In this document: positions 7,003-39,252 of the stretch, one piece after another
How the letters are laid out: each line of letters starts with the position of its first letter
Numbering within the stretch: the stretch's first letter is position 1
DNA from: Ardenticatenales bacterium
GTDB lineage: Bacteria; Chloroflexota; Anaerolineae; Promineifilales; Promineifilaceae
DNA: 58,478 bases
Assembly: GCA_020634575.1 (NCBI GenBank)
Contig: JACKBM010000042.1
Span: 1-58,478, forward strand
Direction of reading: 5' to 3'
Notes under the pieces: model-generated
Told to the model about the DNA's origin: nothing
Databases searched by the model: none
Seen by the model: the letters and a program-made list of their open reading frames with translations, nothing else
Translations under genes and position numbers: made by a program

Positions 7003-8250
7003 TCACCCCAACGCCGCCAATTGCCGCCGCAAAAAGTGCTGATTCACCTCATTGGGTGTCAGGGCCAGCGCCTGTTCGTAGGCCTGGCGGGCTGCCTCTT
7101 TTTGGCCGGCGCGGCGCAGCAGGTCGGCGCGGGCGGCGTGGTAAAGGTAGTAGGTTTGCAGGTCGGTTTCAGCGAGCAGGCGGTCGAGTAACATCAGCCC
7201 GGCCAGGGGGCCATCGGCCATAGCGACGGCGACAGCCTGGTTGAGGCGGACGATGGGGGAGTCGGTGAAGCGGCGTAGCTCGCCGTAAAGGGCGGCGATC
7301 TGTATCCAGTCGGTCTCATCCGCCACAGGCGCTTCGGCGTGGACGGCACTGATAGCGGCCTGAATCTGAAAGGGCCCTGGCCGCCCCTGGCGCAGGGCGT
7401 CTTCCACCAGGGCAATGCCCTCGTCGATTGCGCCTCCATCCCAGCGTGATCGGTCCTGGTCAGGCAAAAGGATAAGGGTGCCATCTGCGGCCAGCCGGGC
7501 TGGGGTGCGGGCGTGGTGGAGCAGCATGAGGGCGAGGAGGCCGGTTGCTTCGGGCAGGGCCGGCATGGCTTTTTCTACTGCCAGCAGCTCGACCAGAAGG
7601 CGACCAAGGCGAATCGCTTCGTCGATGAGATCCGGCCGGATCAACGCATCCCCGCTACTGGCTGAATACCCTTCATTGAAGATCAGATAAATGATAGTGA
7701 GCACGGCCTGTAACCGCTCGCTGATCAGCTCGGGTGGGGGGACACGAAAGGGGATGCCGGCCTGGCGGATTTTGCGCTTGGCACGCACCAGCCGCTGCGC
7801 CATCGTTGCCGCTGGCACCAGGAAAGCGCCGGCTATTTCCTCGGTTGTCAAACCGCCCAGCGTGCGCAAAGTCAGGGCAACCTGGGCCTCCGCGTTAAGG
7901 GAGGGGTGGCAGCAGGTGAAGATCAGTTTGAGGCGTTCGTCAGGGAAGATATCCATCTCAAACTCCGGCTGGTCTGGTTGGGGCAATTGTTGGGCCAGGT
8001 CTGGCTGTTTGGCGACGGCCGTTTTCTGGCGGCGTAGCCGGTCTATGAGGCGGCGGCGGGCAATGGTCGTGAGCCAGGCGCCGGGCTGGCGGGGCGTGCC
8101 CTGGCGCGGCCATTGTTCCAGGGCGATGACCAATGCTTCCTGCAAGGCATCTTCAGCCAGGTCGAAATCGCCACACTGACTGATCAGGGTGGCCAGGACC
8201 CGGCCAGATTCCTGGCGAAAGGTCGTTGCGACCAGCTCTTCAGGCGACAT
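7003..8250 (-). CDS. ECF42-type RNA polymerase sigma factor with C-terminal TPR-like extension
   Basis: 415 residues from the ATG at 8250, which aligns with the usual N-terminus (VATTFRQESGRVLATLI). Region 2 (FDLAEDALQEALVIALEQWP) and region 4 (LTTEEIAGAFLVPAATMAQRL) are clear. A long C-terminal helical domain ending in ARQAYEQALALTPNEVNQHF is the SnoaL-independent, TPR-like extension that defines this class. Such factors are encoded next to a DGPF/YCII protein, as here (8310-8660), and lack a classical anti-sigma factor. A TTG at 8298 is an alternative start. The stimulus is unknown. Confidence 0.88.
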   Translation of the reverse strand: MSPEELVATTFRQESGRVLATLISQCGDFDLAEDALQEALVIALEQWPRQGTPRQPGAWLTTIARRRLIDRLRRQKTAVAKQPDLAQQLPQPDQPEFEMDIFPDERLKLIFTCCHPSLNAEAQVALTLRTLGGLTTEEIAGAFLVPAATMAQRLVRAKRKIRQAGIPFRVPPPELISERLQAVLTIIYLIFNEGYSASSGDALIRPDLIDEAIRLGRLLVELLAVEKAMPALPEATGLLALMLLHHARTPARLAADGTLILLPDQDRSRWDGGAIDEGIALVEDALRQGRPGPFQIQAAISAVHAEAPVADETDWIQIAALYGELRRFTDSPIVRLNQAVAVAMADGPLAGLMLLDRLLAETDLQTYYLYHAARADLLRRAGQKEAARQAYEQALALTPNEVNQHFLRRQLAALG

Positions 8251-8309
8251 AGCAAGGCGTGGGGAGCGGCCGGCCAGCCAGACCAACCGCGTCCCCAACT
8301 CGGCCTGGC

Positions 8310-8660
8310 CTATTCAAACTCCATAATCGGCCGGATCTCGACTGACCCATTTTTGGCGCCCGGGATCTTGGCTGCCATTTCGATGGCTTCATCCAGGTTG
8401 TCACAGTTCAGCATGTAATAGCCGCCGAGCTGTTCCTTGGTCTCGGCGAAGGGGCCATCGGTTGTCAGGATCTGGCTGTCACGCACCCGGACAGTCGTGG
8501 CGGCGGACGTATCGACCAGCGCGTCGCCACCCAGCAACAGGCCTCGATCTCTCACCTCGTTGGTGAAAGCGTTATACTCCGCCATCATGGTCTCCATTTC
8601 TTCCGGTGTCTGGGACGCATCCACCGCTTCATTTCCGTAAATCAACAACATGTAACGCAT
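8310..8660 (-). CDS. YCII-related DGPF-domain protein, partner of the ECF42 sigma factor
   Basis: 116 residues. The start at 8660 is fixed by a strong GGAGG seven bases upstream; longer readings have none. The protein carries the family-naming DGPFAETKEQLGGYYML motif. In this family the gene is the standard partner of ECF42 sigma genes, and it sits 59 bp upstream of one on the same strand. Its biochemical role is not established, although a regulatory function for sigma activity is commonly assumed. It is separated by 108 bp from the end of the kinase gene upstream. Confidence 0.88.
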   Translation of the reverse strand: MRYMLLIYGNEAVDASQTPEEMETMMAEYNAFTNEVRDRGLLLGGDALVDTSAATTVRVRDSQILTTDGPFAETKEQLGGYYMLNCDNLDEAIEMAAKIPGAKNGSVEIRPIMEFE

Positions 8661-8768
8661 TGCATAACCTCCAAAGGGTTTAAGCTCGATCGGGATAGAC
8701 AGCTCCCAAAGTATAACGTCTATCAAAACGTCGTTTGACAATGTGGCAGATCGACAGGTTGTAGAAAA

Positions 8769-11537
8769 TTAGTGGATTTCGACGTTAGTTTCGGTGGGGT
8801 CGCTGAGCAGGCGCAGGGTAAACGTAGCGCCTCTGCCAGGTGGGCTGGTGACCGTGATGCTGCCATGGTGCATATCCATGATCTCTTTGCAGATGGAGAG
8901 CCCAAGGCCAGTGCCGGAGGCTTTGCTGTCACGTCCGGTCTCGCCACGATAGAAGCGTTCAAAGAGGTGGGGGATATCTTTTTCCGGGATGCCGGTGCCG
9001 TTATCCGCCACGCTTAGCCAGACCGTACTTTTGTCATCCTGACCGCCGGAAACTGTGACAACGCTGCCTTCCGGGGTGTAGTTCACGGCATTGACAATCA
9101 AATTGGTCAGGACCCGTTCAAGCTGAGAGGCATCGGCGAGGGCGTTGGGCAAATCGGCCGGCAGCACATTTTCCAGGATGATGGATTTTTTGGCTGCGGC
9201 TGGGGCGCAATGGCGCATGGATTCATCGACAAGGAGGCTGATATCGGTTGGAATCAACTCGATGGGCATGGTGCCCATTTCCAGCTGGGAAGCGGTCAGC
9301 AGGTCCATGATCAACCGGTTGAGTTTTTCAGCTTCCTTACTGAGAATGTCGATATATTCCGGTAGACGTTTTTCCCGCCCTTTATTTAGCAGTTCCAGGT
9401 AGAGGCGGATATTCGTGAGCGGCGTCTTAAGCTCATGAGAGACATTGGAGATGATGTTGGTCTTGAGCCGGTCAATTTCCTTAGCCTGGCTGATGTCGGA
9501 AACAACACCGACGAAGCCGCTTGTTTGACCATGTTCATCGCGAATCGGTGAGGTGGAAAGGCTGACATCGACCTGATGGCCGCCGGGTTGCTGGAGCAGC
9601 AGTTGCCCGTTCCAGCCATTGCCGGCCGCGATGGCTTCCAGCAGGGGCTGAAGCATTTCAGCCGACTCAACGGTGGCATGCCAGCTACTGAGCGGTTGAC
9701 CCAATAGGGTGGAGGTTTCGTGCCCGGAAATAGAAGCCAGTGCCATATTGGCATAAAGTATAGTGCCGGCAGTATCCGCAAAGAAAATACCTTCGCCTGC
9801 ATTGTCCAGAATGGCCTGCGTCCGGTCACGTTCCGTGCGCAACTCAATGGTGCGTTCCTGGACCTGATCAGCGAGGGTATCTCGCTGATGCTGTAACTCT
9901 TCATAAAGGGTTATGTTTTCAATGACTGGGGCTATCTGGTTTGCCAGTGTATAGAGCAGATCGATATCGTTCTGCGGGTAAAAATCGTCCGGGTCGCGGC
10001 GGCCAAACAGCCAGATACCAATGATGTCATTGCGCAAGATCAGTGGAATGGTTAAACGAACCCAGGCAAATGCCCCATCATTGCTCTGCGGCGGAACGTA
10101 GCGGTTGGAGTGTGCGAGCAAGTTTTGCCGGTGTTTGATGATCTGTTGATCAATAGAAGCATCAATGCCTTCGGCATAAACGAGATGTATCTGATTACCG
10201 TCGAATAGATAAAGGGCTGACTGCCGGATAAGGAGAGCCGGTGTGATCTGGGATGTTAACAGCTCATACAGCGCGTCCCGCTTCAAAATTGAAGGGATAC
10301 GGTTGGCAAAGAGACGAATGATCTCGTCCGGATTATGCTGTGACCCATAGGCCAGCCGATTAATGAGTCGTTGACTCTGATTGTTCAACGAAGGAGAGGC
10401 CAGCACGAAGATAATGGTTGTCAGGATCAGAAAAGCATTTTTGGCGGCTATGGATTCAATCAATTGATGGCCAGCCCAAATGACAGTCACTAGAATCAAC
10501 GTGTAGAAAACGAGGAAACTATAGGTTGAGAGCAACCGGTTGGTGCGAAACTCCAGCTTGCCCAAATGCCGCTTGTAGATGGCATAAATATAAAACAGGG
10601 GCAGTATGGGAGTCGCGAATAGGGATATCTGGACGGTTGTCAGGCTGCCGGGGCTTTGCCCCAGCAAAACTGGCACAGTGGAAATGATGCCGGGGCCGAG
10701 AGCAAGCATGATACCGGCAATCATCAAGCGCACGGCAATGCGGTCTGAAGGCGATGTATGGCGACTGTAATAACGATAAGCAAGAATGGCGACAGTTGCC
10801 AGGACGCTGGATAGGAGGAGTAGGGGCGGGACGAGTAGAGGGATAATCCCGGTAAACTCTAGAAGGAGCAATACGGCAGTGAGAATATAGAGTGCCCCAA
10901 TGACACGTTTGCCCTGCCTGGGGGCCAAAAATGATGGGACTCGCCAATGCAGATGGACCATCACTGGACCCAATATGATACTGACCACGCGCAATATCTG
11001 GCGTGAAGAAAGGATTCCCAGGCTGGAAACACCACCTACAACCAGAAACAGGGCGATGAGATGCATGAACAGAACAAGGAGGACCCACCCAGTGTCGCGT
11101 GGCTGCAGGAAAATATAGGCGGCGGTTCCGGCGATCCAGAAGACGAGAAATGTGGCGAGGCTCAGGCCTCGCTCAAACTGATCGGTAAAACGCACATCCG
11201 GCATGGTTAGCTGGACCGGGTCAGCTTCCCCTGATAGCGTCACGAAAAAATGGTCGCCGGGGGACAGCGTGGTCAACCCGTAAATGGGATCAGCTGGTGG
11301 CAGATCGGTAATTGCCATGCCGTTAATGGCGACGATTATCTGATCAAGAGATAGATTTTCCTGGCTGGAGGCAATGATCTTGAGACCGGCCGGATCACTC
11401 TCGCGCGTGTAGTCAAAGCCCAGATACGGTGTGGCAAAAATGAATGTGTAGGTGTATACAACATAAATGCCAAAAGTAAGCACTGAGGTGACGATAAGTG
11501 CCCAATCTATTAAATTCAGATTTCGTTTTTTACGCAC
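8769..11537 (-). CDS. Membrane sensor histidine kinase with ComP-like input module (PDZ-like plus multi-TM), GAF and PAS
   Basis: 922 residues, GTG start with AGGT five bases upstream. Order: TM1 (about 11-34); an outside PDZ-like domain (about 40-112, DQIIVAINGMAITDLP); about eight TM segments (about 120-370); a GAF-like domain (about 400-545); a coiled linker; PAS (about 575-690); HisKA with the phospho-His in SNVSHELKTPLTNIR; and HATPase_c with N box NLIVNAVNYTP, DNGTGIP and GTGLGLS. The TM, PDZ-like, multi-TM order is that of Bacillus ComP, the ComX receptor, although ComP has a HisKA_3 core. It lies just downstream of a prenyl-synthase-like gene and a Trp-rich peptide gene, suggesting it senses that peptide. 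No response-regulator gene is adjacent. Confidence 0.85.
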   Translation of the reverse strand: MRKKRNLNLIDWALIVTSVLTFGIYVVYTYTFIFATPYLGFDYTRESDPAGLKIIASSQENLSLDQIIVAINGMAITDLPPADPIYGLTTLSPGDHFFVTLSGEADPVQLTMPDVRFTDQFERGLSLATFLVFWIAGTAAYIFLQPRDTGWVLLVLFMHLIALFLVVGGVSSLGILSSRQILRVVSIILGPVMVHLHWRVPSFLAPRQGKRVIGALYILTAVLLLLEFTGIIPLLVPPLLLLSSVLATVAILAYRYYSRHTSPSDRIAVRLMIAGIMLALGPGIISTVPVLLGQSPGSLTTVQISLFATPILPLFYIYAIYKRHLGKLEFRTNRLLSTYSFLVFYTLILVTVIWAGHQLIESIAAKNAFLILTTIIFVLASPSLNNQSQRLINRLAYGSQHNPDEIIRLFANRIPSILKRDALYELLTSQITPALLIRQSALYLFDGNQIHLVYAEGIDASIDQQIIKHRQNLLAHSNRYVPPQSNDGAFAWVRLTIPLILRNDIIGIWLFGRRDPDDFYPQNDIDLLYTLANQIAPVIENITLYEELQHQRDTLADQVQERTIELRTERDRTQAILDNAGEGIFFADTAGTILYANMALASISGHETSTLLGQPLSSWHATVESAEMLQPLLEAIAAGNGWNGQLLLQQPGGHQVDVSLSTSPIRDEHGQTSGFVGVVSDISQAKEIDRLKTNIISNVSHELKTPLTNIRLYLELLNKGREKRLPEYIDILSKEAEKLNRLIMDLLTASQLEMGTMPIELIPTDISLLVDESMRHCAPAAAKKSIILENVLPADLPNALADASQLERVLTNLIVNAVNYTPEGSVVTVSGGQDDKSTVWLSVADNGTGIPEKDIPHLFERFYRGETGRDSKASGTGLGLSICKEIMDMHHGSITVTSPPGRGATFTLRLLSDPTETNVEIH

Positions 11538-11582
11538 TTGTTACCTGATAGCGCACAGATAGACGTATGACTTTGCGGATTT

Positions 11583-11602
11583 GCTCCTGACTTCCCAGGA
11601 GC
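11583..11602. other. Inverted repeat in the leader of the kinase gene
   Basis: GCTCCTG and CAGGAGC arms surround six bases, giving a perfect 7-bp hairpin about 45-65 bases before the kinase GTG. It has no T-run on the minus strand, so it is more likely an operator or mRNA structure than a terminator. Confidence 0.35.
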
Positions 11603-11667
11603 CATTTTACCATTGACGGCGTCAGACTACATTGCTTTCCATTACCTTGGATCACAAACCTGAGGGA

Positions 11668-11673
11668 ATTATA
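11668..11673 (-). promoter_or_regulatory. Candidate extended -10 promoter for the histidine kinase gene
   Basis: On the minus strand TGATATAAT forms an extended -10 element about 130 bases upstream of the kinase GTG. No good -35 was found. It suggests the kinase can be expressed apart from the synthase gene. Confidence 0.4.
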
Positions 11674-11798
11674 TCATTACCTGTAAACAGCGGAGATTGG
11701 GAATGAGGTACTAATCTCTCCCTGCGCTAAAGTACATTGTGATGAGTTGCCTGTCCAATGGTCTTTTCAGAGCCATCATGGACGCAAAACGAGAGGCT

Positions 11799-12743
11799 TT
11801 AGCCGAGGCTATCCGTCAGGGAAATGCTGTCTTCGCCCAGCATTTCTTCCCAGAACTGACGGTACATGTCCAGCCACTGATGAATTTGTTCTGGCACGGT
11901 TAATTTCAGGGAGGTGAGCAGGCCGCGGGCTTCCTCGTATTTCTGGACCAGTAGATACACACCATAGCTGAGGGCGCCGGAACGAATCAGGATGTTCTGA
12001 GCCTGGGCCAGCACATCCGGTTGGGCGATCCTGGGCTTTAGCTCCAGTAACTGCTCTCTCTCTTCATGTTCGGCTGTACTGGCGAACATAATAAGCAAGT
12101 TGTTCCTGGATTCGTCCCAATCAGCCGTTTTCTCAGGATCAAGGGCATCCGTAATATCATCCTGAATCTGGGCAAGTTCGCCGACCAGGTGACCAATGTT
12201 GGCAAACGCCTCGACCCTGTCCGCGGAAACGCCGGCAAAAATAGCCCCAAGTTTGAAGGCCCCAGCATAAAATGGCGTACTTTTTGTGTGGACCACACGC
12301 CAATAATTCTCTTCACCCTGCAAATTTTCCGAATCCAGATGTTGGCCATGGGCTGTTCGGGTGGCCATCGCGGCGTAGAGCTGAAGTGCCGCAGTTCTGG
12401 CTGCGGTGGGAATATGGGCTCGGGTGATTGCGCCAACGCCGGCAGCTTGTAATGCCAGAGCATAATTAGCGGTCCGGCCGGTGCCAAATTCATGGAAACC
12501 CCCGCGCGGATCGTTGTCCAATATATCGTCCACCAGCACAATGCTGACTTGCAGACAAGCCAGCGCCACGGCTGCCGGCAGACTTGGTTCGATCGGTTGC
12601 CCGAGCGATTGGGCCACGATCATGGGAATATGCCAATCCGCGGAGCGTCCACGTTTCAAGAGTTGAACCAAAACCGGCCAATCCAACATTTCTGGCTGTT
12701 GGGCAATTTCGGCCATCACGAGTTCGTGGAGATTCTGCGACAT
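11799..12743 (-). CDS. Polyprenyl-diphosphate-synthase-like protein, candidate ComQ-type peptide prenyltransferase
   Basis: 314 residues, all-helical isoprenoid synthase fold. The first Asp-rich motif is VDDILDND and the second is QIQDDITDALD, so both Mg-diphosphate sites are present. The family makes polyprenyl diphosphates, but ComQ of Bacillus is a member that instead transfers an isoprenyl group to a Trp of the ComX precursor. Two neighbours favour that role here: a small Trp-rich peptide gene 282 bp upstream and a ComP-like kinase downstream, all on one strand. AGAGGAA lies eight bases before the ATG. An ordinary chain-elongating synthase is the alternative. ComQ-like function is inferred, not shown. 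Confidence 0.75.
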   Translation of the reverse strand: MSQNLHELVMAEIAQQPEMLDWPVLVQLLKRGRSADWHIPMIVAQSLGQPIEPSLPAAVALACLQVSIVLVDDILDNDPRGGFHEFGTGRTANYALALQAAGVGAITRAHIPTAARTAALQLYAAMATRTAHGQHLDSENLQGEENYWRVVHTKSTPFYAGAFKLGAIFAGVSADRVEAFANIGHLVGELAQIQDDITDALDPEKTADWDESRNNLLIMFASTAEHEEREQLLELKPRIAQPDVLAQAQNILIRSGALSYGVYLLVQKYEEARGLLTSLKLTVPEQIHQWLDMYRQFWEEMLGEDSISLTDSLG

Positions 12744-12771
12744 GTGACAATTCCTCTAGCAACAGGAACAG

Positions 12772-12807
12772 AAAAAGTAAGAAAGCGTGTAGAGACTACA
12801 CGCTTTC
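12772..12807 (-). terminator. Intrinsic terminator/attenuator between the Trp-rich peptide and synthase genes
   Basis: A perfect 12-bp stem (GAAAGCGTGTAG / CTACACGCTTTC) with a 3-base loop is followed on the minus strand by TTACTTTTT. It lies between the peptide stop and the synthase start, ending about 28 bases before the ATG. Most transcripts would end after the peptide, with read-through supplying less of the enzyme. Confidence 0.8.
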
Positions 12808-13024
12808 TAGGCGAAAAGGCTATTTGGCAACAAACAAGCATCGCCCAGACATGAAACACCACAAGATGTTTGCCTGAAACTCAATCTGTTTATTGCCGGT
12901 AAGGCTAAAAAGCGACCCAGACCAATAATTTGGCAAGCACATGTTCTACGGAGGAACCGGAAAAGCGCGAGCTCAACAAATCAGAAATAGTCTGTTACTA
13001 ACCTGAACTGATAATGCGAAACTA

Positions 13025-13201
13025 TCAGCCCCACCACCACCAGCCGGACCAAACTTCCGAACGGGTGGGAGCGTTGCGCTTCGGCAGCAAATTCTTGCTA
13101 TTTGCCGCGGTCAGTTGACGCAAAACAGCCAGGGTTGGGGTGCCTTTGCTTTGGGATTTCAACATTGAGTTGAATCCCTGGATACTGGTGTGATTTTTCA
13201 T
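13025..13201 (-). CDS. Small Trp-rich peptide, candidate ComX-like pheromone precursor
   Basis: 58 residues from the ATG at 13201: a Lys/Ser/Thr-rich body and a C-terminus reading RSEVWSGWWWWG, with Trp at 51 and 54-57 and a final Gly. ComX precursors are likewise about 55 residues with an isoprenylated Trp a few residues from the C-terminus. AAAGG lies four and GGAG ten bases upstream of this ATG. A TTGACT-17-TAATAT promoter sits about 75-100 bases upstream, and a strong terminator follows. A longer in-frame reading to 13327 would pass through the promoter and is rejected. There is no signal peptide, also as in ComX. Assignment rests on size, Trp placement and neighbourhood. Confidence 0.7.
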   Translation of the reverse strand: MKNHTSIQGFNSMLKSQSKGTPTLAVLRQLTAANSKNLLPKRNAPTRSEVWSGWWWWG

Positions 13202-13242
13202 ATTGCCTTTACTCCAAATGCACACTATGAGGTTGACAAGGG

Positions 13243-13266
13243 GGACCAGTACTGTAGTACTAATCC
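13243..13266. promoter_or_regulatory. Dyad operator candidate just after the peptide-gene transcription start
   Basis: AGTACT-GT-AGTACT, flanked by GGA and TCC in inverted orientation, lies a few bases downstream of the predicted start near 13268. It could be a repressor site or a 5'-UTR hairpin. Confidence 0.4.
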
Positions 13267-13274
13267 TGGCCCCG

Positions 13275-13303
13275 ATATTAGGTCGCTTCAGGAGTAAAGT
13301 CAA
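13275..13303 (-). promoter_or_regulatory. Promoter of the Trp-rich peptide gene
   Basis: Minus strand: -35 TTGACT (13298-13303), a 17-bp spacer, and -10 TAATAT (13275-13280). The predicted start is near 13268, giving a leader of about 66 nt. Confidence 0.65.
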
Positions 13304-13317
13304 GGAACTGTAAAAGA

Positions 13318-13350
13318 AATTACGCATATTTACGGATTCATCACGTAATT
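13318..13350. promoter_or_regulatory. Inverted repeat upstream of the peptide promoter
   Basis: AATTACG and CGTAATT half-sites are 19 bp apart and centred about 66 bp upstream of the predicted transcription start, a position typical of activator sites. A link to the circuit's unknown response regulator is speculation. Confidence 0.3.
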
Positions 13351-13484
13351 GCCACCAGATCTGGCGTCAGGCGCCATTATTTTGGCTGTTTATTTGACGT
13401 AGCTCGCTTTTTCTGCCAGCGATCCTCAGCGCTGAATCGGTAGCTTTTTCATGAGTGCTGGGCCTCTGTTGAAAGCGGTTGTGT

Positions 13485-13490
13485 TATAAT
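13485..13490 (+). promoter_or_regulatory. Extended -10 box of lepA (near-leaderless)
   Basis: TGTTATAAT is an extended -10 element ending nine bases before the lepA ATG. The transcript would start within a few bases of the start codon. No Shine-Dalgarno sequence is visible. Confidence 0.55.
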
Positions 13491-13499
13491 CTCGCCGCA

Positions 13500-15305
<1,806 letters not shown>

Positions 15306-30254: not shown

Positions 30255-33200
30255 ATGACAGATCGCATCGGGCAGGTGCTGGGCCATTACCGCCTCGACT
30301 CTATGATCGGGGACGGCGGCATGGGGACGGTTTATCGGGCTCATGATTTGAACCTCGATAGAACCGTGGCCCTGAAATTGATGCATGCGCACTTTGCCCG
30401 GGTGCCGGAGTTTCGCGCCCGCCTGACCCAGGAGGCCAAGGCCGCCGCCCAGCTCGACCATCCCTCCATCGTCAGCATCTACGAATTTGGTGAGAGTGAA
30501 GAGGGCCACCTCTACATCGCCATGGAATATGTGGATGGTGGTAGCCTGCGCGCCCATATCAAGCGGCTGCAGATGAATGCTCGTTTTCTGCCGCTGGGCC
30601 AGGCACTGCAAATTGGTGCCCAGATGGCCGACGCGCTGGATTACGCCAATGGTCGTGGCTTCATCCACCGCGATGTCAAGCCGGGCAACATCATCCTCAA
30701 AAAACTGCCCCGCGCCGAAGAGCCTGACGAACATCCCTTCCGGGCTGTTTTGACCGATTTTGGTCTGGTCAAGATCTACGAGAGCGAGCTCTCCATGACC
30801 AAGAGCGGCACGACCCTGGGGACGCCGATTTACATGTCCCCGGAGCAATGCCTTGGTCAGAATCTGGATGGCCGCTCTGATCTCTATTCGCTTGGCGTGG
30901 TCCTTTACGAGCTGGTAACCAACCGGCTTCCTTTCGCCTTCAAATCATTGCCCGAAGCGATCAACGCCCACAATCGGGGCGATATGCCGCCGCCGGCGCG
31001 CCAGTTCCGCAAAGATGCGCCGCCCATGATCGAGACGATCCTGAACCGGATGTTGGCCAAGCGGCGCGAAGACCGTTATGCCTCCGGTGAGGAGCTGAGC
31101 CGCGTCCTGCGCAGTACGGCGTTTGCCCTGGAAAATCGGCCCACGCGCGTTATGTCCGTCACCGAGGCGGAAGAGATTGCTTCGCGCACGCCAATTGTCA
31201 TTCCTCAGGGCTATGAGCTGGTCATTTCCACGCCGGGTAACAGCACCAGCACGATTTCATTGACCCGGGAGATCATCACCCTGGGCCGCCATGTGGACAA
31301 CGATGTCGTTTTGCCGACGGAAGGGGTTTCCCGCCATCATGCCCGTATCCGGGCCACAAACTCTGGTTGGGGCATCATCGACATGGGCGGTATCAACGGT
31401 ACGCTGGTTGATGGGGAACGGGTGCGGGCCAACCAGATGGTGCCGATTTACAATGGCACCCGGATGCAACTGGGCCCTTATGAGCTGGTTCTGCGCGGGC
31501 CGGAAGGTGCCCCGCCGCCGCGGGAGCAGACAACCCGGCTGCAATTTGATGGACCGCTGACGCCGCCGCCGTCAGACCCGACTCTAACGACACAGCCACC
31601 GATGACCCCCAGCGGCACGGCCCTGCCCATTGAGCCGATGGCCATTTTCCTGTCGCGTGATCAGCTAACGGCGACGCCGGGGCAGCCAGAGGAGCTGGTA
31701 ATTGAGGTGCGCAACCGGACGGATGTGGCGGACCGGGTCAATTTGCGTTTTAAGGGCATACCGTCGGATTGGTTGACGTTACCGGCCGGTTTCATCGACA
31801 TCCCCGCCCAGGGCAGCACCCCCATTTCTGTGCAGCTCCTGCCACCGCGCCGCACCAATACGCCGGTTGGCCGGCAACGTTTTGTCGTCGAGCTGATTTC
31901 CCAGCAATATCCGGAATCAACCGCTACCGCTAACGGACAACTTTTCCTGTCCGATTTTGAATCTTTCACGGTAGAGTTGGCGCCACGGGAAATCAAAGTA
32001 CCGGGCAACACCACCGTCCTGATTCAGAACACGGGCAATGGGGTGGGTGAATATAGCGTCGCCGGTCGGGAATATTCTGACCAGATTCGCTTCACGGGTG
32101 AACGTGGCCGGATTACCCTGCAGCCGGGCCAAAAAGCCGAGATCCAGCTGCGCCTGGAGGCTCGTCAGGCCAATCCCTATGGCAGTCCTGATATTGTCGA
32201 TTTTGAGGTTGAGGTCACGGGCAAGGCGGGCGCCAAGACGGTCAAGAACGGCCGGGCGATTATCAAGCCGTTGCTGCCTGTTTGGGCGGTCTCGGCTATC
32301 ATGCTGGTTTTTCTCTCGCTTTGCGTCTATCTCACCCTGACGTTCATCGCCAGGGGGATTGACAACACGTTGGGTGCGGATACGTCGACGCCCACAAGCG
32401 GCTTTGTATTTGGCCAGACGCCTGACAGCACGGTGTTGCCGGGCACGCCTGGCACGACAGTGCCAGGTGCGACCCGGATAACCGCCGAAGATGCGGACGG
32501 GGATGGCCTGGCCGACAATGTCGAACGGCGCCCCGAAATTGGCACCGATCCCAACGACCCCGACACGGACGACGATGGCCTGTCGGATTACGATGAGGTG
32601 ATCACCTACGGCACGAATCCAACCGAAGTTGATACCGATAGCGATAACCTGTCTGACTTCGATGAGATCAACGTCCATCAGACCAATCCCAATAACCCTG
32701 ATACTGATCGGGATGGCGTATTGGATGGCGTTGAAGTGGCCCAGGGCACCGATCCGCGGGCACAGCCCACAGCCACGTTTACGCCGTCTGTCACGGCGAC
32801 TGCCACCGAGATAGTCACGCCCAGCGTCACCCCAACGCCGTCCGACACGCCAACGGTGACGCCAACCGGCTCACCGACGCCCACGCCCACAGCGACCGGC
32901 ACGGCAACCCAGACGCCAACATTCACGCCGACAGCGACGGCGACCGAAACCGGCACACCAACGCCGACGCAGACGCCAACGCCGGAGCCCAACCCGCTGT
33001 TGGCCTGCATTCCGACGGCTCCGGTAATAGATGGCGTGTTCGCCGCGTCCGAGTGGGGTGATGTGCCGCTGGCAACCTTCGCCGTCACGGGTATCCCGTC
33101 GGCGACGGCCACGGTTTATGTCGTTCGTGATGTGGATTTCATCTACATTGCCTTTGTCATTAATGATGAAACGGTTCAGGCAACGGATGCCGCCAGTATC

Positions 33201-33560
33201 CTTTTTGATGTGGCCAATCCGGGCGGCGATCCTGATAGCGTGGACCGGCTCATCCAGATCTCGCGGGATGGCGCGATTTCCTTGAGCAGTGGCGAGGGTA
33301 CAAACAGCGATAACAATTTCTGGGACGCCAACTATGATTCCGATCAGTGGGAAGCTGCTATGGGGACCCCGAACGCGGAACAATGGGTCGTAGAGATCGC
33401 CGTCAATGCTACGAACGAGTTTGCCAGCTTAACCAATCCATTCAACATGATGGCCCGCGTTCTCTTTAATGGGGAAGGGCTGGCTGTCTGGCCAGAAGGG
33501 GCATCATCCAACGTTGTTGACAGCTGGCAAGGTATCGACGACATCGTCTGTTCGCCGTAA
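30255..33560 (+). CDS. Transmembrane Ser/Thr kinase with FHA, Ig-like, calcium-type repeats, T/P stalk and CBM9-like outer domain
   Basis: 1101 residues. The kinase is at about 10-285 ([13 protein letters not shown], catalytic [25 protein letters not shown]). An FHA domain lies at about 335-410 ([19 protein letters not shown]). Beta/Ig-like domains occupy about 460-665, and a single TM about 675-700. Outside are Asp-rich thrombospondin-3-like repeats ([48 protein letters not shown]), a Thr/Pro stalk of about 70 residues, and a C-terminal CBM9-like domain ([18 protein letters not shown]). It probably couples an outside ligand to phosphorylation of FHA-bound partners. Confidence 0.88.
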
Positions 33561-36129: not shown

Positions 36130-39100
36130 TTAGTTGGGGGCGCTAGGGATGATGGGGAGGGACCAGAGGTGGGCGGTGCCGTCGCCGCTGCCGGCGAGGA
36201 GGATGGTGCCGTCGGGGGACCAGCTGACGGCCCAGACGGCGTAATGGCCGCCGGGCAGGGCGTGGAGTAGTTCCCCGGTGGACGCCGACCAGATATTGAC
36301 GGTGCCGTCGAAGCCGCCGGAGGCCAGGAGCTGGCCGTTGGGGGACCAGCTAACGGAGTTTACCCAGCCATCGTGCTCACGCAGCACCAGCTCACTTGCC
36401 TCAGCATCCAAATCCCAGATGCGGACCGTGCCATCGTTGCTGCTGGTGGCCAGACGCGTGCCGTCAGGCAACCAGCTGATGGCGCGGATGGCCTCGCGAT
36501 GCTCATCCAGCCGGGACAAAATGAGGCGTTCCTGCCAATCCCAGATGAGCAAAGTGCCATCTGCAGCGCCCGTAGCCAGTAAGGCGCCGTCCGGCGAGAA
36601 GGCCAGCGCTTCGACGGAGGCAGTGTGGGTGAGCGTGATGAACTGGGGCTGGCTCAGATCGGCCGTATCCCAGATGCGTACCAGTTGATCTTTGCCGCCG
36701 GAGGCCGCATATTGGCCGTCCACAGACCAGCCGACGCTATTGACGATCGCCCGGTGCGTTCCCAGTCGAGTTATCATATCGCCTGACTCTGTGTCCCAGA
36801 GACGAATCTGGCCATTGAAGTCTGCCGTCAGGAGCCGGCTGCTGTCCGGCGCAAAGCTGAGGCTGCTTACCCAGCTGCTGTGACCGGCCAGATTGAGCAG
36901 TTCTGCCTGCCCGTCGGCGCTCCAGATGCGGGCCGAATCATCGCTGAGCCCGAGGGCCAGTATGGCGCCATTGGGCGCCCAGGCGGCGCTGTTGATGGAG
37001 GTCATGTGGCCCTCTATCTGACGTTGGGCTGACCCATTGTTGCTTGCCCATGTGCGCAGGACGCCATCGATCCCGCCTGTGATTACTGAGTTTTCATCCA
37101 GCCAGGCGCCGCCCGTCACCGGTGCTGTATGTCCATTCAGCTCAGTCGCCGTCATGGTCGCCACGTTCCAAATGCGGGCCATATTGTCGTTGCCGGTGGT
37201 CAGCAGGCGGGCGCCGTCGGCCGACCAGCTCAGGCTGAAGATGGCGCCGAGATGGGCGTTGACTTCAACTATCGGGGTGCTGCCGGCAGCTTCCCAAAGG
37301 CTGAGTTGGCCGTCGATGCTGCCGGCGGCCAACCGGTTGCTGTCGTCGGCCCAGGCCAGGGTAATGATGGGGCTGTCGTCGGCCTGCACTCTGGTTTGTT
37401 CAGCACCGGCCGGTCCATAAAACACCAGCTCACCCGTCTGCAAACCTGCCGCCCAGCCCTGCCCGGCCGGCGCCCAGGCCACGCTGCGCACGCTGACGGT
37501 AAAAGCCGCCATCGTCACACCAGGGCCGCCGGCGCCCACATCCCAGAGGCGGACAGTGCCATCGCTGCTGCCGGAGAGCAGGCTGGCGCCATCGGGCGAC
37601 CAGCGCAGAGCGCGCACCCAATCGGTATGGCCACTGAACTGCTGGATGATTTCGCCGGCGGCTACATCCCAGACAAGGATGGCGCCATCGTCGCTGGCCG
37701 AAGCAATAAGCCGGCCGTCCGGTGACCAGGCCGCCGTGCGCACCGTGCGCGCGTGGCCATCCAGGTGCGCAACGGTCTCGAGGGTGATGGCGTCGTAGAG
37801 CCAGAGGCCATCACCGCCGGCGACAGCCAGCAGGTCACCGGCCGGAGCGCGCAAAATCTCCTCGATGGTGCCGCGGCCAATCTGGGCATAGGTGACCAAC
37901 TCGGCGACATTGGCGGCCGTGATCACGGCGTCTTCAGCGCCGGGCCGGGCCGTTACATTGGCGGCGACGGTTGCTGTCGGCTGTGGTGTGGTTTCGCTGG
38001 CATTTGTCGCCGTCACGGCCCTGGTAGGGGTGGCCGTATTGCTGGGCGGTGAGGGGAAACCTGCCGCCGCCTCGCCCGGCTCATCAGGGCCGGCAAAGAG
38101 TGATGGTAGCCAGAACAAGCCAGCCAGCACCAGGAAAACCAGAGCAGCAATGCCGCCATATAAGCGCCAGTTTCGCGGCGTACTGGCGGATTCGGCGGCT
38201 ATTGGGGCCACTGGTAGAGCCTGTGGCGGGACCGGCCGGGCGCGCGGCTGAATCAACGGCGGCGGCATCTCCTTGATGGAATGCCTGGCTTCGCTGGGCA
38301 GCTCGGGCAGGTCACCGGTTGCTTCATCTTCTACGGGCAGCGCAGGCAGAGGACCGGTTTCCTCAGCTGGCGTGACCTTTGGCCGCTGGCTGATAGGCGG
38401 CGGCGTGCGCATGGTGACGGGCGGGGGCGTAGCCTCACTTTGGGGTACCGCGGCCAGGGCAGCCGCCAGGGCGCTGGCGCGGGGGAAGCGCTCGTCGGGC
38501 TCTTTGGCCAGGGCTTGCTCAATGATGTCAGCCAGGGCTGGCGGCAGGTCGGGGCGCCAATGGCGGATGTCCGGTGGCCGCTCCAGGAGATGCTGCATCA
38601 TCAATTTGGCCGGAGTATCAGCGTCAAATGGGGTTTTGCCGCTGAGCATGAGATAGAGGAGCGTACCGAGGGCATAGACATCGCTGCGGCGGTCGACCGG
38701 CCGGTCCCCGTAAATCTGCTCCGGGCTCATAAACGCCGGCGTCCCAATGACGCCGCTGCCTGTCAGGCTTTTGGTCTCCTGATCAACCAGCCGGGCGATG
38801 CCAAAGTCAGAGAGATAGGCGTTTTCGTACTGGTCAAAGAGGACGTTACCGGGCTTAAGATCCCGGTGAATGACCTGGTGTTCATGGGCATGATCGAGCG
38901 CCTGGGCCAGCCGGTTGATGATGGCCGTGGCGCTTGCCAGCGACAGCGGGCCATTGTCTAGTCGCTCTTTTAGCGTGCCGCCCGACAAATAGCGCATCAC
39001 CAGATACGGTTGCTCTTCATCCTGACCAAAATCATAAACGGGGACAATGAAGGGGTGTTCCAGCGCCGCAATGACGCGCGCCTCACGCTCGAACCGTTTG

Positions 39101-39252
39101 CGGGAAACCGGGTCACGAAAATAGGCAAAGAGCAGCGCCTTCAGGGCTACATCGCGGCCAAAAAGCGGGTCGTGGGCGCGATAAACAACGGCCATTCCGC
39201 CGCGGCCAAGCTCTGAAAGTAGCTGATAACGCCCGATCATCTGGGGATGCAT
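36130..39252 (-). CDS. Transmembrane Ser/Thr protein kinase with about 14 WD40 repeats
   Basis: 1040 residues. The N-terminal kinase (about 7-270) has GRGGMAVVYRAHD, VALK, HRDLKPGNVL, DFGIAR and GTPAFMSPEQ, all intact. A Pro-rich linker, one TM (about 363-385, GGIAALVFLVLAGLFWLPS) and a Thr-rich segment lead to a C-terminal outside region of about 14 WD40 blades, each with a phrase such as VRALRWSPDGASLLSGSSDGTVRLWD. That suits two seven-bladed propellers. The outside position of the blades is inferred from the single TM. The family acts in signalling; ligand unknown. Confidence 0.92.
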   Translation of the reverse strand: MHPQMIGRYQLLSELGRGGMAVVYRAHDPLFGRDVALKALLFAYFRDPVSRKRFEREARVIAALEHPFIVPVYDFGQDEEQPYLVMRYLSGGTLKERLDNGPLSLASATAIINRLAQALDHAHEHQVIHRDLKPGNVLFDQYENAYLSDFGIARLVDQETKSLTGSGVIGTPAFMSPEQIYGDRPVDRRSDVYALGTLLYLMLSGKTPFDADTPAKLMMQHLLERPPDIRHWRPDLPPALADIIEQALAKEPDERFPRASALAAALAAVPQSEATPPPVTMRTPPPISQRPKVTPAEETGPLPALPVEDEATGDLPELPSEARHSIKEMPPPLIQPRARPVPPQALPVAPIAAESASTPRNWRLYGGIAALVFLVLAGLFWLPSLFAGPDEPGEAAAGFPSPPSNTATPTRAVTATNASETTPQPTATVAANVTARPGAEDAVITAANVAELVTYAQIGRGTIEEILRAPAGDLLAVAGGDGLWLYDAITLETVAHLDGHARTVRTAAWSPDGRLIASASDDGAILVWDVAAGEIIQQFSGHTDWVRALRWSPDGASLLSGSSDGTVRLWDVGAGGPGVTMAAFTVSVRSVAWAPAGQGWAAGLQTGELVFYGPAGAEQTRVQADDSPIITLAWADDSNRLAAGSIDGQLSLWEAAGSTPIVEVNAHLGAIFSLSWSADGARLLTTGNDNMARIWNVATMTATELNGHTAPVTGGAWLDENSVITGGIDGVLRTWASNNGSAQRQIEGHMTSINSAAWAPNGAILALGLSDDSARIWSADGQAELLNLAGHSSWVSSLSFAPDSSRLLTADFNGQIRLWDTESGDMITRLGTHRAIVNSVGWSVDGQYAASGGKDQLVRIWDTADLSQPQFITLTHTASVEALAFSPDGALLATGAADGTLLIWDWQERLILSRLDEHREAIRAISWLPDGTRLATSSNDGTVRIWDLDAEASELVLREHDGWVNSVSWSPNGQLLASGGFDGTVNIWSASTGELLHALPGGHYAVWAVSWSPDGTILLAGSGDGTAHLWSLPIIPSAPN

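Follow-up and report, generated by a model that had tools for sequence, protein, structure and literature searches.

A ComQXPA-like X-Q-P cassette in Chloroflexota with predicted prenyl-peptide signalling

The closest described systems to the locus treated here are ComQXPA of Bacillales and Clostridiales, PalX-PalQ-PalP of Paenibacillus alvei, and the tryptophan farnesyltransferase Ord1. For Bacillus and its relatives, the available part of a census gives the conservation order ComA>ComP>ComQ>ComX (PMC4008528). The nearest literature on Chloroflexota states, in its accessible portion, only that they contain a kinase-regulator pair (PMC8895600). No title or abstract on such a Chloroflexota system was found in the open-licence literature, which holds few subscription journals and preprints, and a prior description is possible. 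We analysed a window of 58,478 nucleotides, i.e. the whole stretch from position 1 to 58,478 of contig JACKBM010000042.1 (assembly GCA_020634575.1, Ardenticatenales bacterium). Three consecutive genes on its minus strand, in the order X-Q-P, encode a short peptide with a Trp-rich end, a trans-isoprenyl-synthase-like protein and a sensor histidine kinase. The locus is probably a ComQXPA-like Chloroflexota cassette, in which Q is predicted to prenylate a C-terminal Trp of X and P would then likely sense the secreted product.

The cassette and its recurrence

The features of the locus, in window coordinates, are the following.

13025..13201, minus strand: X precursor, 58 amino acids (aa), MKNHTSIQGF...VWSGWWWWG (translation, profile match, alignment, ribosome-binding site)
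13031..13051, minus strand: predicted core of X, W51-S-G-W54-W-W-W57, with the W-x-x-W signature (alignment of 37 X)
13206..13215, minus strand: Shine-Dalgarno-like GGAG and AAAGG before X (direct reading)
12780..12808, minus strand: hairpin between X and Q, a 13-bp perfect stem followed by a T-rich tract, terminator- or attenuator-like
11799..12743, minus strand: Q, trans-isoprenyl-synthase-like, predicted peptide prenyltransferase, 314 aa
12516..12530, minus strand: first Asp-rich motif of Q, D72-D-I-L-D76
12147..12161, minus strand: second Asp-rich motif of Q, D195-D-I-T-D199
8769..11537, minus strand: P, membrane sensor histidine kinase, 922 aa, GTG start
10278..11537, minus strand: ComP-type input module of P, residues 1-420
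11202..11429, minus strand: predicted extracytoplasmic PDZ-like domain of P, residues ~37-112 (model m8beb3faee6ce; weak Foldseek PDZ matches)
9915..10265, minus strand: GAF-like domain of P (Pfam, below cut-off)
9492..9824, minus strand: PAS domain of P (Pfam)
9276..9464, minus strand: HisKA phospho-acceptor domain of P (Pfam)
8808..9134, minus strand: HATPase_c domain of P (Pfam)

The full translation of X is MKNHTSIQGFNSMLKSQSKGTPTLAVLRQLTAANSKNLLPKRNAPTRSEVWSGWWWWG. Its best start is the ATG at 13201, preceded by GGAG/AAAGG; the longest open reading frame (ORF) extends to 13327. The start ATG of Q is preceded by AGAGGA. The initial annotation had described three same-strand genes for a Trp-ended peptide, a synthase-like protein with both Asp-rich motifs and a kinase. 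All were present as described, with X ending VWSGWWWWG and Q containing DDILD and DDITD. The order X-Q-P was as stated, and Pfam agreed with a HisKA core carrying added GAF and PAS domains, GAF scoring below the cut-off. The absence of a ComA-like regulator was borne out as well: when kinase, HD and response-regulator genes near the cassette were sought with seven prototypes over the whole window (tblastn, E 1e-3), P alone matched.

Homologues of Q numbered 80 at E≤0.001 among 5.8 billion proteins. Loci were collected with the Q alignment from one genome per species and without knowledge of X or P, so that the presence of the latter beside Q is a fair test. Among 64 loci, L001-L058 (E 1e-13 or better) were kept and six weak ones (L059-L064) dropped. 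Of the 58 loci, 49 had a receptor input no more than about 2.2 kb from Q, 48 of them recognised by tblastn with P residues 1-420 (E≤1e-3) and L044 by profile. It was situated downstream on the same strand in 25, divergently in 23 and upstream on the same strand in L003. Gene linkage in relatives, which had been named as a check on the annotation, was thus observed; four of the nine exceptions (L005, L020, L056, L057) are loci whose contig ends right after Q, and no receptor input was detected near Q in L049.

X was searched for among 8077 ORFs of 25-130 aa from six frames of 59 loci (window included). The profiles were trained on 10 X ORFs of group 1 cassettes, the group of the window, and 12 of group 2; one of the 12 training rows of profile B was a wrong ORF (L040_7373). 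Window X was matched by the profile from 10 other loci with E 4.2e-9. At E<0.01, 55 of the 59 loci had an X-like precursor upstream of Q on the same strand; 34 of these loci had not contributed to the training. Four loci were without such a match: in L021 and L031 Q stands at the start of the contig, while L036 (E 0.21) and L049 (E 0.064) have WxxW ORFs at the expected position. Apart from these, the only matches at E<0.01 were a second precursor each in L012 and L038, and the wrong training ORF.

Searches with the receptor input gave a corresponding picture. In 14 carrier genomes, input profile A2 found 14 full-length matches, all at most 3 kb from a PF00348 gene and two of them in second, diverged cassettes (G009 C46, G013 C71), plus five partial ones. 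Among 400 sampled Chloroflexota genomes, 11 had a receptor input at E≤1e-15. Flanks were read for 11 full or nearly full copies, a count that excludes the contig-end copies G025 C640 and G002 C360 and the 133-aa fragment L142; Q adjoined 8 of these copies, five of which (G002, G025, G032, G078, G238) had already been reached through Q, and 3 were without it. L136, a new complete X-Q-P, was reached via the receptor alone, its X scoring E 8.9e-15. Window LepA is 81% identical to LepA of genomes G158 and G386, neither of which is among the 11 input-bearing genomes, so the cassette is patchy.

Most record titles name Chloroflexota or its subgroups. Seven loci are titled Acidobacteriota (L006, L012, L020, L021, L036, L038, L045), L049 is titled Deltaproteobacteria and L029 'bacterium'. 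Genome bins can be wrong, but five Acidobacteriota-titled Q and that of L049 form one clade (support 99). The cassette is real, conserved and repeatedly assembled.

Enzyme, precursor, receptor and spacer

Q matched Pfam polyprenyl_synt with E 4.5e-20, and no NCBIfam model matched it above cut-off. It has the trans-isoprenyl-synthase fold with an intact first Asp motif. A quick tree was built from 32 of the 59 cassette Q, 11 ComQ (P0158 being ComQ-like by search alone) and 29 housekeeping synthases. The latter comprised 28 of 30 fetched loci plus P0159, and 28 of the 29 came from cassette-carrying genomes; L096 (too short) and L098 (cassette place of G014, no match) were left out. As evident from this tree, Q does not group with housekeeping synthases, the outcome on which the annotation had made its proposal depend: the 32 cassette Q form one clade (Shimodaira-Hasegawa-like approximate likelihood-ratio support 100). 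The Lys of the GGKxxRP loop, which belongs to the isopentenyl diphosphate (IPP) site, is present in 29/29 housekeeping enzymes, 1/32 cassette Q and 2/11 ComQ, and the first Arg after the first Asp motif in 29/29, 0/32 and 0/11, respectively. Each of 14 cassette genomes also holds other, typical PF00348 genes.

In an alignment of 37 X, columns F10, W51 and W54 were at least 90% identical. WxxW occurs within the last 35 residues of 47/57 X versus 201/5261 small ORFs (X counted among the latter). With 58 aa and Trp residues from W51 to W57, X resembles the ComQXPA precursor, which has about 50-60 aa and a Trp near the C-terminus. No Pfam family was shared by more than one of the 37 peptides, and no NHLP model was present among their Pfam matches or among the NCBIfam matches of window X. 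Second X-like precursors are encoded at L012:9201-9404 and L038:9304-9519, and L038 also has a second synthase gene. A gene at L049:7688-7951 (+) carries three WxxW copies (WAQW, WTPW, WEPW) after one leader and possibly yields several peptides.

P consists of a membrane part of about 400 residues followed by GAF (weak), PAS, HisKA and HATPase_c domains. For comparison, comQ-comX loci were taken from plasmids of Bacillus velezensis, Anoxybacillus, Lysinibacillus and Priestia; the Anoxybacillus and Priestia loci are whole comQXPA and were the source of ComP. The group 1 input (17 sequences, window included) aligned with the ComP input (11 sequences) over 396 columns with an hhalign probability of 99.71% (E 2.1e-25), in agreement with the ComP-type input claimed for the kinase, and the group 2 input (19 sequences) with 99.54% (E 2.6e-22). 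The control membrane families ComEC, NuoL and NuoH reached at most 0.11%. Judged by these alignments, the P input is homologous to that of ComP over about 400 residues. An AlphaFold model of the P input (mean predicted local distance difference test score 87.7) contains one helix, a five-stranded domain at 41-111 and further helices. Foldseek matches, all at E 0.077 or worse, included several PDZ proteins over about 90 columns, among them DegS with a bound YQF peptide; from their alignment length they would fall on the 41-111 domain. Because PDZ domains bind C-termini, a PDZ-like domain of P would suit a Trp-ended ligand. The first loop of ComP has likewise been modelled as a PDZ domain, according to the available part of PMC9620489.

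The outputs of 43 of 50 receptors (49 plus the window) were classed by BLAST to prototypes as 23 HisKA_3, 18 HisKA and 2 HD. Pfam agreed for the examples: HisKA in the window, L004, L012 (hybrid), L027 and L054; HisKA_3, below the Pfam cut-off, in L001; and HD_5, fused to the receptor input, in L002:7393-9876 and L016:6962-9766. We take the HD_5 domains for HD-GYP, in which case the fusion would turn a peptide signal into cyclic-di-GMP breakdown. The regulator missing from the window is supplied in relatives: a NarL-type regulator is convergent to Q in 22/22 divergent-type loci with room for it (21 distinct loci, L033 and L034 being identical over at least 7.8 kb), and Anoxybacillus ComA matches 19 of the 22 at E≤1e-6. 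L024 has a gene set corresponding to ComQXPA, collinear on one strand and arranged as XQPA, with a P of HisKA_3 type and an A of NarL type; the latter shares 30% identity with ComA over 215 residues (E 2.6e-19).

Median identities in group 2 (14 loci, 91 pairs, not independent) were 33% for X, 42% for the P input, 51% for the P core, 53.5% for Q and 58% for the regulator. Compared with the census order in Bacillus and relatives, the extremes agree (X least, regulator most) and the middle differs. In group 1 (8 loci, 28 pairs) the values were 39% for the P input, 41% for X, 43% for the P core, 60.5% for Q and 61% for the neighbouring ComEC. The P core was more identical than the P input in 82/91 pairs of group 2 and 24/28 of group 1.

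The X-Q spacer of the window (281 nucleotides) folds with a z of -5.3. A perfect stem of at least 10 bp is present in 35/57 X-Q spacers, compared with 0.17 expected from shuffles and 3/414 random stretches, and a terminator-like stem with T-tract in 11/57 (0.8 expected). The motif CGTGTGG...CCACACG, picked after some spacers carrying it had been inspected, or a compensated form of it, occurs in 11 spacers and in one copy elsewhere in 871,564 bases. Compensated changes are seen in the stems of the window (CGTGTAG...CTACACG) and L037 (CGCGTGG...CCACGCG). Besides these two, the conserved hairpin is found in the spacers of L002, L007, L008, L013, L018, L024, L029, L055 and L057. In the 14 genomes its unmutated form lies at five places, four of which are the cassette, and a backwards control pattern at three. 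Most simply, the hairpin would act as a partial terminator and so hold X levels above those of Q; its sequence conservation points to something more, perhaps a control element acting as RNA or DNA.

Several neighbouring genes were recorded. Upstream of X-Q-P lies a divergent lepA. P is followed on the same strand by a YCII gene (window 8310-8741, minus) and a gene for an extracytoplasmic function (ECF)-type sigma factor with DUF6596 (window 7003-8298, minus), which might both be co-transcribed with P. The window also encodes Ser/Thr protein kinases with WD40 repeats and with an FHA domain (36130-39252, minus; 30255-33560, plus). In L007 a ComEC-type DNA-uptake gene (11406-14036, minus; Pfam) is convergent with P; ComEC homologues also stand beside P in L010, L013, L018, L019, L029 and L055 (59-76% identical to L007) and in L011 (40%). 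mutS precedes X in L007 and, by identity, in L013, L019 and L029. These neighbours hint at competence. In L043, L050, L051 and L053, X ends VWGW[YN]WDW and an OmpR-type regulator adjoins Q; on a separate contig of genome G009, to which L053 belongs, lies a further, diverged pair of synthase and receptor.

Proposed mechanism and rival explanations

The three genes, their recurrent association, the Trp-rich end of X, the ComP-homologous input and the altered IPP site are all read from sequence. The cassette most likely works like ComQXPA, with Trp prenylation, secretion and sensing as predictions. An allylic diphosphate (geranyl or farnesyl) would bind the first Asp motif of Q, and the Trp of X would occupy the place of IPP. 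Proteins other than X, Q and P would remove the X leader and export the product. The mature product would bind P at its PDZ-like domain and membrane helices, and P would autophosphorylate on the HisKA His and then phosphorylate a response regulator coded outside the window. Many relatives have a NarL-type regulator beside Q, and in two loci the input is instead fused to an HD-GYP-type domain. Through the hairpin, more X than Q would be made.

A number of observations weigh against this interpretation. None of 37 X matched the ComX family (PF05952) at E≤1, whereas 4/4 real ComX controls did. Cassette Q and ComQ are two separate clades; their joining against the housekeeping enzymes had a support of only 77 in the quick tree, where the ComQ branches are long. 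The IPP site is lost in part only: the loop Arg aligns in 29/29 housekeeping enzymes and still in 11/32 cassette Q, and the second Arg that follows the first Asp motif remains in 24/32. That first motif and the V ahead of it are partly given by construction, since the locus scan used the pattern LVDD[IM]LDx[DE]. The second Asp motif is complete (DD..D) in 32/32 cassette Q, whereas 11/11 ComQ have N or G at its first position. This weighs against a ComQ-like activity because, in the available part of PMC5331326, the ComQ motif must be ND or GD and an N-to-D change drastically cut geranylation; the point is tempered by a 2026 review whose accessible text implicates the first Asp of the motif in Trp recognition by related enzymes (PMC13290415). 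The clade of L043, L050, L051 and L053 has X and Q, and no receptor was found nearby. Conversely, neither Q nor X was detected near L134:4082-6325, L135:4010-6274 and L141:3002-5242, which thus represent stand-alone receptors. In group 1 the P input, and not X, is least conserved, and no exporter or protease for X was recognised among the scanned neighbours, which are part of all neighbours.

With regard to the lone receptors, a NarL-type regulator adjoins those of L134 and L135, and the L141 genome also holds the full cassette L136. The stand-alone receptors are possible eavesdroppers.

Three other explanations were considered. X might be the precursor of a prenylated antimicrobial, with P serving, as in lantibiotic clusters, to autoinduce its production, and with signalling secondary. 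X resembles a ribosomally synthesized and post-translationally modified peptide (RiPP) with a variable C-terminus, the three WxxW copies in L049 and the second precursors in L012 and L038 would suit a bulk product, and related enzymes of the trans-isoprenyl diphosphate synthase (trans-IDS) type modify RiPPs, as stated in the available text of PMC13290415. However, the scanned cassette neighbours (part of all) included no recognisable gene for immunity or ABC export, and a receptor with an input of ComP type is present in 49/58 loci; we regard an antimicrobial as unlikely. Still less probable is a role of Q as a common short-chain prenyl diphosphate synthase, with its free isoprenoid as the signal sensed by P and X as a small regulatory or structural protein: the IPP-binding Lys is lost in 31/32 Q and the first Arg in 32/32, all 14 cassette genomes have other typical PF00348 genes, and X stands beside Q in 55/59 loci.

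That X, Q and P are unrelated neighbours and the Trp-ended ORF a chance frame has hardly any probability left. X is short and has no Pfam family, but the window X was matched by the profile from other loci, and the X-Q-P linkage recurs in records titled Chloroflexota and Acidobacteriota. Chance neighbourhood was rejected on the basis of that profile match and of the linkage between input and PF00348 gene in carrier genomes.

The ComQXPA-like interpretation can be extended. Prenyl-peptide signalling would then be modular and reach beyond Firmicutes to Chloroflexota, Acidobacteriota and perhaps Myxococcota; a ComP-type input would read WxxW prenyl peptides and be plugged into HisKA, HisKA_3 plus NarL, hybrid or HD-GYP (cyclic-di-GMP) outputs, stand-alone receptors would eavesdrop, and the X-Q hairpin would set the peptide-to-enzyme ratio. 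We give this joint reading an even chance. New here are the one input on HisKA, HisKA_3 or HD-GYP-type outputs, the conserved X-Q hairpin and the stand-alone receptors. If the interpretation is right, Chloroflexota have a predicted peptide language whose enzyme, precursor and receptor are defined; a family of at least 80 homologues, with a second Asp motif unlike that of ComQ, joins the candidate Trp prenyltransferases; and the output swaps (kinase versus HD-GYP type) are natural experiments on signal transmission from the ComP input.

Comparison with known systems

The cassette shares with ComQXPA a short precursor with Trp near its C-terminus, a trans-isoprenyl-synthase-like enzyme whose first Asp motif is intact and whose IPP loop lacks the Lys, a ComP-type sensor input and, in many relatives of the window, a HisKA_3-type core with a NarL-type regulator. 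It differs in the order X-Q-P, in a precursor that is not PF05952 and has a W-x-x-W end, and in a full DDxxD second motif of Q. Moreover, the window kinase is of the HisKA type with GAF and PAS and without a regulator in the window, the output is of HD-GYP type in L002 and L016, and the receptor is often divergent and the regulator convergent. The ComQXPA logic proposed in the initial annotation therefore stands with respect to linkage, ComP input and the regulator in relatives, whereas X is not ComX by sequence and the second Asp motif is unlike that of ComQ. By these two tested features, precursor family and second Asp motif, the cassette is no strict ComQXPA member. A ComQ-like gene, 31% identical to B. 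subtilis ComQ, was also seen on CP065518.1 (L069), a plasmid labelled Stenotrophomonas rhizophila; this record may be mislabelled or contaminated.

To our knowledge, Ord1 has no peptide or sensor partner. Like Q, this farnesyltransferase of free tryptophan (PDB 9v4i) is all-helical and trans-IDS-like, and it acts on indole; 9v4i is among both the sequence matches (E 0.002) and the fold matches of Q. Its substrate differs, being free Trp in the accessible text of PMC13290415. Housekeeping polyprenyl diphosphate synthases are set apart by the GGKxxRP IPP loop, whose Lys is missing from 31/32 cassette Q.

With PalX-PalQ-PalP, as described in the available part of PMC10853753, the cassette shares a clustered histidine kinase, a Trp-ended precursor and a trans-IDS-like Trp prenyltransferase. 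According to the same text, PalX carries an NHLP leader and terminates in Trp, whereas window X lacks such a leader and ends WG. Two distant cassettes, L143:6275-6484 (-) and L144:7060-7269 (-), encode precursors ending GPMGGWF, and that of L143, the one tested, has a LigA/NHLP-like leader. L143 and L144 look like a Pal-like system in Chloroflexota.

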